From positions 1 to 55,109 of the forward strand of contig MHXH01000020.1 in assembly GCA_001824435.1 (NCBI GenBank): a stretch of DNA of 55,109 nt, read 5' to 3'. The position numbers were made by a program, and so were the translations under genes. The DNA is from Parcubacteria group bacterium RIFCSPLOWO2_01_FULL_48_18. Lineage in GTDB: Bacteria; Patescibacteriota; Minisyncoccia; UBA6257; WO2-01-48-18. Below, one piece after another: positions 13,773 through 36,132 of this stretch. The first letter of the stretch is position 1; every line of letters starts with the position of its first letter. Below the pieces are notes generated by a model, which ran no database searches, had not been told where the DNA came from, and saw only the letters and a list, made by a program, of their open reading frames with translations.

Positions 13773-13792
13773 GGAACCTGCCCCGGAGACTA

Positions 13793-13955
13793 AAGACCTC
13801 TTGCACAATAACCCTTTCTGCTGCAATTTCTTAATTTCGGCTGCGCCTTCGTCGCTCCTCCTCGACGTATACTCTGTATACAATCTCGTCGTCGCCCCTC
13901 GGCTCGCTCGAAATTGAGAAATTTAGCGACGAAAAGTTATTGTGCAAGAGGTCTT
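13793..13955. repeat. Structured terminal-inverted-repeat element, copy A (163 bp)
   Basis: Perfect 20 bp terminal inverted repeats (aagacctcttgcacaataac at 13793-13812 and its complement at 13936-13955). A second stem (aatttcttaatttcg against cgaaattgagaaatt) lies inside. The GC-rich core contains gtatactctgtatac and clusters of cgacgacgag. The core matches copy B at 35622-35782. It sits 20 bp upstream of the PilO-like start. It has no coding capacity of its own. Confidence 0.85.
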
Positions 13956-14048
13956 AAGTAAAAAGTCTCTTATAGTGGCATATCTTTATTAAATAACATT
14001 TCTGCAATATACTCAACAGCCTACCAAGACAAATAACCATTAATTCAG

Positions 14049-14061: not shown

Positions 14062-15807
14062 ATGAGGTTTTTTCTAAAAAAACCGCTGGTTTCAGCTCTT
14101 GTCATTCTTTTCATTGCGGGAGCGGGGGTCGTCCTCTTTTATATAACCCGGGGGCCGATGCCGAAATTTGATGTTATCCGTGTGACAGAAAGCGATCTCA
14201 CGCAAGAAGTAAATTTCACCGGACGCGTCACGCCTGCGCAAAACATCACGCTTGCCCTTGAGGTCGGCGGAAAAATAGCGCGCGTATATGCCGTCGTAGG
14301 ACAAAGGGTAGGGGCGAACACCATACTCGCCGAACTTGAAAATGCCGAATCTCTTGCCCAACTCGCGCAGGCAAAAGCAGGGGTGGCAAGCGCAAGAGCG
14401 CAGCGCGCTCAATATGAAGCCGCGTTCAAAACCCAAGAGGCAAAGCTTAGAGAATTAATCCGTGGCACGCGGCCCGAAGAAATACAGCTTGCGGAAACAA
14501 AAGTTTCAAACGCCGATAAGGCGCTGGCGGACGCCCGAACAAATCTCGAAAATACAAAACAAAGGGCCGCAATTGATCTTACAAATCTCTACGACGGTAT
14601 AGAAGATATTATAACGGATGCGCACACCAAATCAGACGACGCGGTACGCAAGCAGACCGACGAGATGTTTACCGACGACGAATCGAACAATCCCCAGCTC
14701 ACGTTCATTTCATCCAATTCGCAAGCAGAAACAAACGCAGAATCCGACCGCCTTACAGCGGGGAACGCGCTTAAAAATCTAAAAATCGAGCTCGATGCTG
14801 TCTCATCTCTTTCAACCCAATCCGCGCTCGACCAAACCCTTAACCGCTCAGAAGCGCATCTCGTCATCATCAGAAATTTCCTTACTGCGCTTTACTCGGC
14901 CATAAACTCCGCAACGGGAATTTCGCAAACGACTATCAATACCCACAAGGGCAACACCAACACTGCCCTGACCAATATCAATACTGCCGCCGCAAACATC
15001 AGCGGCCAAAAACAGCTGATTGCCGCCCAACTGGCAACGAACCAAACGAATATCGACGTCGCTCAATCAAAAGTGACCGACTCGGAAAATGTTTTGCGCA
15101 GCGCCGAGGACGAACTCTTGCTTAAAAAAGCCGGCCCGACCGCAGAACAAATTGACGCGCAAGAAGCTCAAGTTGCCCAAGCCGAAGCAAATATCGCCTC
15201 TCAACATGCGCTCATCGCGCAAGCCGAAGCGAACACAAAAGTTATTGAAGCGCAGATAGAAAAAGCAATCCTACGCTCGCCGATCGGCGGCGTAGTAACC
15301 GTTCAAAATGCGAAAGCCGGAGAAATCGTCGGGCCGAACCAACCGCTCATCTCGCTAATTTCCGAAGCGCAATTCGAAATCGAAGCGAATGTACCCGAAA
15401 CGGATATTTCCAAAATACGCATCGGTGACGCGGCGTCAATTACGCTCGACGCATACGGAAACGACGCGATTTTTCAAGCAAACATCACTGCAATCGACCC
15501 CGCAGAAACTATCGTCGACGGAGTGACAACGTATACCACGACGCTGCAATTCAATAAAGAAGACGAACGGATCAAATCCGGAATGACCGCGAACATTGAT
15601 ATCGTGACCGACCGAAGAGAAAACGTACTTATCGCACCGCAGCGCTCCGTGATACGGAAAAACGGAGACAAAGTCTTGCGCATTCTCTTGGATAACGGAA
15701 ACATCCAAGAAAGAAAGATAGAAACCGGACTCCGCGGCTCGGACGGCAACATCGAGATTACTGCCGGCGTCCAGGAAGGAGAGCAAATAATCGTCTCTGA
15801 AAAATAA
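14062..15807 (+). CDS. Periplasmic-adaptor (HlyD/MacA-type) efflux subunit
   Basis: 581 aa. An N-terminal membrane anchor (ALVILFIAGAGVVLFYI, about residues 12-28) is followed by a split lipoyl/barrel-sandwich domain (residues 60-95 and SPIGGVVTVQNAKAGEIVG near 410), a very long alpha-helical hairpin with many QA and A-rich heptads (about 110-400), and a beta-barrel and membrane-proximal domain. Adaptors of this family link an inner-membrane transporter to the outside. The helical hairpin is longer than in typical MacA. Its stop overlaps the ATPase start (TAATG), so the three genes 14062-17772 form one operon. Confidence 0.88.
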   Translation: MRFFLKKPLVSALVILFIAGAGVVLFYITRGPMPKFDVIRVTESDLTQEVNFTGRVTPAQNITLALEVGGKIARVYAVVGQRVGANTILAELENAESLAQLAQAKAGVASARAQRAQYEAAFKTQEAKLRELIRGTRPEEIQLAETKVSNADKALADARTNLENTKQRAAIDLTNLYDGIEDIITDAHTKSDDAVRKQTDEMFTDDESNNPQLTFISSNSQAETNAESDRLTAGNALKNLKIELDAVSSLSTQSALDQTLNRSEAHLVIIRNFLTALYSAINSATGISQTTINTHKGNTNTALTNINTAAANISGQKQLIAAQLATNQTNIDVAQSKVTDSENVLRSAEDELLLKKAGPTAEQIDAQEAQVAQAEANIASQHALIAQAEANTKVIEAQIEKAILRSPIGGVVTVQNAKAGEIVGPNQPLISLISEAQFEIEANVPETDISKIRIGDAASITLDAYGNDAIFQANITAIDPAETIVDGVTTYTTTLQFNKEDERIKSGMTANIDIVTDRRENVLIAPQRSVIRKNGDKVLRILLDNGNIQERKIETGLRGSDGNIEITAGVQEGEQIIVSEK

Positions 15808-35608: not shown

Positions 35609-35621
35609 GAATTATCTTTTA

Positions 35622-35782
35622 GAAACCGTTGAATAACCTTTTTTCGTCACGAAATTGTGTGGTTTCGTGCGAGCCGAGGAGCGACGACGAGGTTGTATAC
35701 GGAGTATACGCCGAGGAGGAGCAACGAAGGCGCAGCCGAAACCACACAATTGCAGTAGAAAAGGGGGTTATTTTACGGTTTC
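35622..35782. repeat. Structured terminal-inverted-repeat element, copy B (161 bp)
   Basis: Terminal repeats are gaaaccgttgaataacc (35622-35638) and the near complement ggttattttacggtttc (35766-35782). The inner stem attgtgtggtttcg pairs with its complement. The core contains gtatacggagtatac and is nearly identical to copy A in reverse orientation. The stem sequences differ from copy A but remain paired. The right terminal repeat supplies the stop codon of the pseudopilin-like gene. Confidence 0.85.
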
Positions 35783-36132
35783 TTAGGCTCAAGCAAATAA
35801 TTTTGTCCGTTATCCCGAGATTCATATCGAAACGCATCGGGACTAAACAGCATCCGCAAGTATCCTTTCTTGTGCAGCTCATTGACCAAATCTCCTTCGT
35901 CGTCCACTTGCGGATACACGCTGTAATCCAGATAATACAAACCGAGTGCGGACGCAATTTGATCAATATTTGTCGTCTGGATTTCAAATTTCGCGCTGTC
36001 CAGCACGGCATTAAATGGAACAAAAAAATGAAGCACCACCACCGCAATGCTGGCCGCCGTAACGAACAGCAGTGTAACCACAATTCCCCTCACATTTTTA
36101 TTGTACCATATTTCTTTTGGAGTCCATCTCAA
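35773..36132 (-). CDS. Pseudopilin-like small membrane protein
   Basis: 119 aa. One membrane helix (GIVVTLLFVTAASIAVVVLHFF) is followed by a domain with the pilin/GspG-like features TTNIDQIASALGLYYLDYSVYP, then YESRDNGQNYLLEP. A type III signal peptide is lacking (no G-F-x4-E), so it may not be processed as a pilin. The last codons (KKP and stop) come from the terminal repeat of element copy B, which means the original C-terminus was probably altered by the insertion. Function unknown. Confidence 0.65.
   Translation of the reverse strand: MRWTPKEIWYNKNVRGIVVTLLFVTAASIAVVVLHFFVPFNAVLDSAKFEIQTTNIDQIASALGLYYLDYSVYPQVDDEGDLVNELHKKGYLRMLFSPDAFRYESRDNGQNYLLEPKKP

Follow-up and report, generated by a model that had tools for sequence, protein, structure and literature searches.

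The window analysed here (the whole stretch of 55,109 nucleotides) is contig 20 of a 1.21-Mb genome that is 96% complete (genome label G000), and it holds two copies, A and B, of a 161-bp palindromic element whose features are collected in Table 1. Copy A lies between divergent genes, with a minus-strand start at about 13772 on one side and, about 107 bp downstream on the other, a plus-strand gene for an HlyD-type membrane-fusion protein that begins at 14062. Copy B is flanked by two minus-strand genes, the downstream one encoding a class-III aminotransferase. In the other gene, 35773-36132 (-), the final three codons and the stop codon come from the end of copy B; this gene encodes a small membrane-anchored protein whose C-terminus was set by the insertion.

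An earlier note on this DNA had described a two-copy element with near-identical cores in opposite orientation and with arms that differ between the copies and pair within each. The cores and their orientation were confirmed from sequence and coordinates, and so was the relation of the arms. The bounds it had placed on B (35622-35782) were right, and those on A (13793-13955) were trimmed to 13794-13954. Its distance of 13-20 bp to a minus-strand start codon holds for B, at about 13 bp, and needs slight correction for A, at about 21 bp. No credible gene includes the core of A or that of B.

Table 1. Features of copies A and B in the window (TIR, terminal inverted repeat).
Feature	Position	Strand	Remarks
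Copy A, 161 bp, TIR subfamily 1 (AGACCTCTTGCACAATAACC)	13794..13954	+	full match in genome search
Copy A target duplication, left, TAA, 3 bp	13791..13793	.	
Copy A target duplication, right, TAA, 3 bp	13955..13957	.	
Copy A left TIR	13794..13813	+	
Copy A right TIR	13936..13954	+	
Copy A inner stem, left strand (AATTTCTTAATTTCG)	13825..13839	+	
Copy A inner stem, right strand (CGAAATTGAGAAATT)	13909..13923	+	
Copy A conserved core, type I	13839..13909	+	covariance model R1, 83.5 bits
Copy A apical hairpin GTATAC-TCT-GTATAC	13867..13881	+	stem covaries among copies and genomes
Copy B, 161 bp, TIR subfamily 2 (GAAACCGTAAAATAACC)	35622..35782	-	
Copy B target duplication	35619..35621	.	TTA on + strand, TAA on element strand
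Copy B target duplication, other side	35783..35785	.	TTA on + strand
Copy B conserved core	35667..35737	-	covariance model R1, 87.1 bits
Copy B apical hairpin GTATAC-nnn-GTATAC	35695..35709	-	
Stop codon of gene 35773-36132 (-)	35773..35775	-	from end of copy B; ...KKP*

Fold and copies in the host genome

The arms are 78% complementary over 51 nt in A and 77% over 47 nt in B, and the spacing between them is 69 nt in both. The single-stranded DNA folds much more stably than dinucleotide shuffles do, with z = -8.9 for A and z = -6.2 for B. The alignment of 12 uninterrupted copies from the host genome (A1) has a consensus fold of 55 pairs; standard pairs occupy 94.8% of its 658 pair cells (33-44% in slid registers), and two-sided changes occur in 34 of the 55 pairs (3-9 pairs in slid registers). 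The apical hairpin GTATAC-nnn-GTATAC likewise covaries among genomes, for example as GTATGC/GCATAC, GTATCC/GGATAC, and GTACTC/GAGTAC, with 13 two-sided cells against 2.4 in shuffles. The compensatory arm changes, from which selection on a folded DNA or RNA had been argued for two copies, are thus confirmed well beyond these two, in numerous other copies and genomes; the argument itself is insecure if it stands on them alone, as template switching within a quasi-palindrome may likewise preserve the match of the arms.

The host genome has more than these two copies. A BLAST search of the 1.21-Mb genome with copy A found about 20, on many contigs and with unrelated flanks, several of them interrupted by smaller nested insertions. 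Five TIR types occur in the genome, namely AGACCTCTTGCAYAATAACC (A), GAAACCGTTAAATAACC (B), GAGCATGTCCGGAAACC, GAAGCTGTCCGAAAA, and GAAACTGTTTAAAAAC. TIR type is partly independent of inner-stem type, one TIR type being found with three inner stems and also, in copies L023 and L025, with another core. Some copies at different sites are nearly alike: by counts made by eye, L010 and L011 differ at 4 of 161 positions and L023 and L025 at 3 of 159.

Perfect 3-bp direct repeats flank 10 of the 19 copies measured, where shuffled pairing gives 3.6 (p < 0.0001), which identifies the copies as insertions. The repeats are TAA..TAA in six copies and TTA..TTA in four; the combination TTA..TAA is found in none of the 19, and this speaks for a target duplication rather than a longer palindrome. 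Insertion in the host genome is thus at TA-centred sites with a duplication of 2-3 bp (TA/TWA), the third TIR type apparently having a 2-bp TA duplication and the other types 3-bp TWA. Duplications are weak in the other genomes: 44% of the copies there have TA at each end, and duplications as long as 5 bp or longer were not seen. With many copies, unrelated flanks and target duplications, the mobility of the element is well supported, as is the earlier suggestion that it is mobile and non-autonomous.

Other small insertions were observed inside the copies. L013 (C14:7957-8227) and L016 (C23:22557-22831), at unrelated places, carry the same nested hairpin insertion of about 100 nt (CCCGTTAGAAAATTACTAAC...), flanked by CTCGCC; this would follow from transposition of the loaded element or from copying of one of the two from the other. 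Other small nested palindromes are found in copies that include L019:530-700, L020, L021, L022, L024, and L026. Examples are CTTCGATTTCACT...GGACGAC, with GTCGTC repeated at each end, and CCTGCCTGCCGGCAGGCAGG, which lies close to the core CTCC.

Distribution and conserved parts

The covariance-model search of related genomes was carried out with a core model of 71 positions (R1). Within the order, 63 of the 244 genomes searched gave the core, with up to 20 copies each, the copy numbers being minima because the scored candidates per genome were limited; in an even phylum sample 7 of 380 genomes did so, the host genome counted in. The exact core pattern was found at 75 places among 84,980 species genomes (257 Gb), for which chance matches to about 28 fixed bases are estimated at far below one. 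The matches fall in Omnitrophota, Eisenbacteria, Elusimicrobia, Planctomycetota, Gemmatimonadota, Rokubacteria, and Patescibacteria, the last represented by Parcubacteria (Wolfebacteria, Harrisonbacteria, Liptonbacteria, Yanofskybacteria, and Nealsonbacteria among them) and Berkelbacteria; one lies in the closed chromosome of Ca. Velamenicoccus archaeovorus. Most of the matches away from contig edges have the same palindromic architecture, which is a feature outside the pattern. To judge from these sequence matches, the core is common to at least six bacterial phyla. The viral contigs, phages, and plasmids searched gave no core match.

The element has terminal inverted repeats and no coding capacity, it folds as a single hairpin or as two nested ones, and its length is 161 bp in the host genome and 160-290 bp elsewhere. 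Many copies outside the host genome measure 265-290 bp and represent a form of about 270 bp with two inverted hairpin units, while the host genome has the single-hairpin form. The order in the longer form is TIR stem, second hairpin, a small CCCGAAGGG hairpin, and type I hairpin; the core of the second hairpin is a related one that runs in the inverted orientation.

Conservation across phyla is confined to the internal core, GTYGCTCCTCCTCRRNGTAY-hairpin-RTACNNYYTCGTCGTCGCKCCTYG; the terminal repeats and the inner stems, nearly unrelated from copy to copy, have to pair within a copy and no more. Complementarity of the outer arms, measured on 181 copies, is 0.90 within a copy and 0.29 between copies, with similar behaviour of the inner stem. 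The 56-nt core has 66% identity between random pairs of copies (38% for random stretches), compared with 39% for the TIR and 37% for the inner stem (random 31%). Core conservation was measured solely on copies found without the exact pattern, since the pattern fixes part of the core. An ordinary MITE family has the reverse pattern because the transposase fixes the ends there. The spread through several phyla, and the core rather than the ends as the conserved part, go beyond the earlier note.

The arms of L078, L086, L090, L096, L131, L132, L232, and L282 resemble a tRNA T-arm and 3' end (GGTTCGAATCCCGCGTCCT). A tRNA origin of such arms (GGTTCGAATCCC) was considered and rejected, as the ends scanned gave no tRNA gene. 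Separately, the copy L066 (genome G241) adjoins a tRNA-Gln gene and appears to be enclosed by another tRNA-like sequence, which it interrupts.

rRNA genes and the search for a mobiliser

In eight genomes, 12 copies in all are situated within 23S rRNA genes or immediately next to them, every one in the sense orientation (p 0.0005); most of these genomes gave only one 23S gene in the search. Those within the gene occupy variable-length loops or helix tips where other species have small hairpins. An empty site is seen in genome G109, whose 23S gene has no element; G108, of the same genus, has a copy between CAT and CAT. The 23S gene of G127 (L189) has a bare stem, GCCTTGTGTTTCACAAGGC, where G058 has a full copy, and this stem is possibly a deletion scar of the element. 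The 23S gene of the host genome is about 7 kb long and in two parts (C17:60070-67050), and its long insertions are not this element. A survey of insertions in CPR rRNA genes noted that most of them occupy either the top of a stem-loop or its base, and it left a short ORF-less class unexplained (PMC11270868). The element may account for some members of that class.

The sense-only placement hints at a constraint at the RNA level and counts against DNA-only readings. Arm mismatches point the other way: on the core strand GU and AC number 106 and 188 in the TIRs and 116 and 151 in the inner stem, so that GU is not in excess. These counts speak for pairing as DNA rather than as RNA on the core strand, and a DNA reading of the element is the more likely one. 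Beside protein genes there is no sense bias; a weak antisense excess (30 vs 15) comes from a crude ORF caller and is not relied on. No family of Rfam 15 matched the element at the gathering threshold or at E <= 10. A group I or group II intron was rejected, as no intron covariance model matched. No description of the sequence was found in the open-licence papers searched, and with respect to these and to Rfam the family counts as new.

A transposase with similar ends was found neither in the host genome nor in an Eisenbacteria genome (G619) that has about 20 copies of the element. No second location in the host genome bears the TIRs. Among the 43 TIR matches in G619, those fetched form pairs 89-166 bp apart that are elements, except for the ends on C121 and C168, for which no partner was seen in the stretch taken, and none of the fetched matches encloses a transposon between matching ends. 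The inverted-repeat search likewise gave no matching ends for the two rve-type genes of the host genome or for the IS630-type gene of G619. The term MITE-like is used here, rather than MITE of a named IS, because no matching autonomous ends were found in the two genomes tested.

Four transposase families were tested in genomes of which some are incomplete, and all four were rejected as the partner because they are unlinked to the carriers or missing from most high-copy carriers. PF01609 (DDE_Tnp_1) occurs in 10 of the 244 genomes of the order, in 4 of 63 carriers vs 6 of 181 others (p 0.29), and is absent from the host genome. PF01797 (Y1_Tnp) occurs in 24 of 63 carriers vs 46 of 181 others (p 0.07) and has no match in the host genome, G018, G058, G064, or G144, all of which have many copies. 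Among 17 carriers tested, mostly high-copy, PF13358 (DDE_3) was found in one and PF00665 (rve) in five. No recurrent protein was found beside the copies, and GC skew gave no replication-strand bias.

Explanations and known systems

A and B are probably copies of a MITE-like, non-coding, non-autonomous mobile element that is moved in trans and in which the core is conserved and the arms are paired and otherwise free. An enzyme encoded elsewhere, or supplied only occasionally, would move the element in trans, and the core and the paired arms would serve it to recognise the folded form, be this a cruciform or an extruded single strand. The sequence of the arms could then drift or be exchanged provided that pairing persists. 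In transcripts, 23S rRNA included, the element would form a closed side stem, and insertions at rRNA helix tips may survive because of it. It is from conservation alone that we infer recognition through the core. The wider proposal is tentative: a class of mobile DNA whose recognition depends on the folded form of a palindrome and on a conserved internal core, not on the sequence of the ends, which would be free to change, and which would be moved by a novel enzyme or host pathway that Patescibacteria, Omnitrophota, Eisenbacteria, and others have in common.

Ordinary MITE families offer a second explanation, which we regard as somewhat unlikely. Each TIR subfamily would have its own DDE transposase (IS5-, IS630-like or similar), lost or intermittent, and the core would be an inherited passenger that aids tolerance or folding. 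The element is short and non-coding, with TIRs and TA/TWA or CTAG targets; its terminal sequences resemble usual transposon ends by eye, which fits DDE MITEs with lost partners, and the different duplication of TIR subfamily 3 looks as if several enzymes were at work. However, the TIRs occur nowhere else in the host genome, no autonomous partner was found in G619 (one end, on C121, being without a partner seen), PF01609 is unlinked to carriers, and PF13358 and PF00665 are present in few of them. A passenger core, moreover, would be expected to decay faster than ends recognised by a transposase, and the reverse is observed.

Quasi-palindrome template switching is a known mutational process, in which replication copies one arm onto the other, and it would produce matched arms of whatever sequence with no selection on the fold. 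It concerns the arms only and is compatible with the other readings; as the whole story of the matched arms it is improbable. The conserved imperfect spots between copies, with TTCTGCTGCAAT opposite ATTTCGCTACGAA and a largely unpaired core, argue against it, and so do the intermediate mismatches that are common in recent copies, such as CACAATAAC opposite GTTATTATG in L010, L013, and L020.

Selection on an RNA fold, in a regulatory RNA or in an rRNA intervening sequence cut by RNase III, would explain the covariation and the sense placement of all 12 copies at 23S genes, those inside lying at variable helix tips. It is nevertheless a very improbable origin for an element that has no Rfam match, in which GU does not outnumber AC on the core strand, and whose orientation beside protein genes is if anything antisense. 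The distribution is patchy and multi-copy with unrelated neighbours, and the target duplications indicate DNA insertion.

Insertion of the IS200 type is not known to make target duplications. Movement as folded single-stranded DNA by a Y1 (RAYT/IS200-type) transposase, as in REPINs, is hardly credible for this element, since the two inverted hairpins with compensatory arms in its 270-bp form, which are like those described for REPINs (PMC3116915), and the marginal excess of Y1_Tnp in carriers are set against target duplications, five many-copy genomes without PF01797 (the host genome included), no strand bias by GC skew, and a conserved part that is central rather than terminal.

If the proposed reading of a MITE-like element moved in trans is true, several phyla, largely of bacteria not in culture, have been reached by a single small non-coding element of which only a core of about 45-70 nt and the rule of arm pairing are kept. 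This would point to a mobilising activity not yet known, may account for some uncharacterised insertions in the rRNA genes of CPR bacteria, and would supply a large natural data set on the recognition of folded DNA. The core model is usable to count, date, and trace copies in metagenomes.

The element resembles MITEs in being small and non-coding, with terminal inverted repeats, short TA-type target duplications, and many copies; it differs from them in its conserved internal core, in ends that are almost fully unlike between copies, and in that no partner with matching ends was found in the two genomes tested. ERIC, Correia (CREE/NEMIS), and RUP elements are intergenic palindromes of about 100-150 bp that have TA targets and are transcribed and folded, and each is to our knowledge limited to one or a few related genera. 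The palindrome and the TA target are shared with the present element, whose core is found in at least six phyla. In integron attC sites the structure is kept while the stem sequence varies, and the ends are R and L boxes. The element similarly keeps its structure despite varying stem sequence; unlike attC sites it has target duplications and lacks R/L-box ends, and no integron context was seen.

The insertions in CPR rRNA genes and RNase III-type intervening sequences (PMC11270868) are likewise non-coding insertions at 23S stem tips, whereas the element is one dispersed mobile family, mostly outside rRNA genes. REPINs and BIMEs, which are moved by RAYTs, consist of two inverted hairpin units with compensatory hairpin changes and spread within one genome (PMC3116915). 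The element shares with them the compensatory changes and the within-genome spread; two inverted hairpins are present in its 270-bp form and absent from the single-hairpin form of the host genome. It differs in having target duplications, much longer arms and cores, and no Y1 transposase in the host genome. REPINs keep their ends and vary inside; the element does the reverse.
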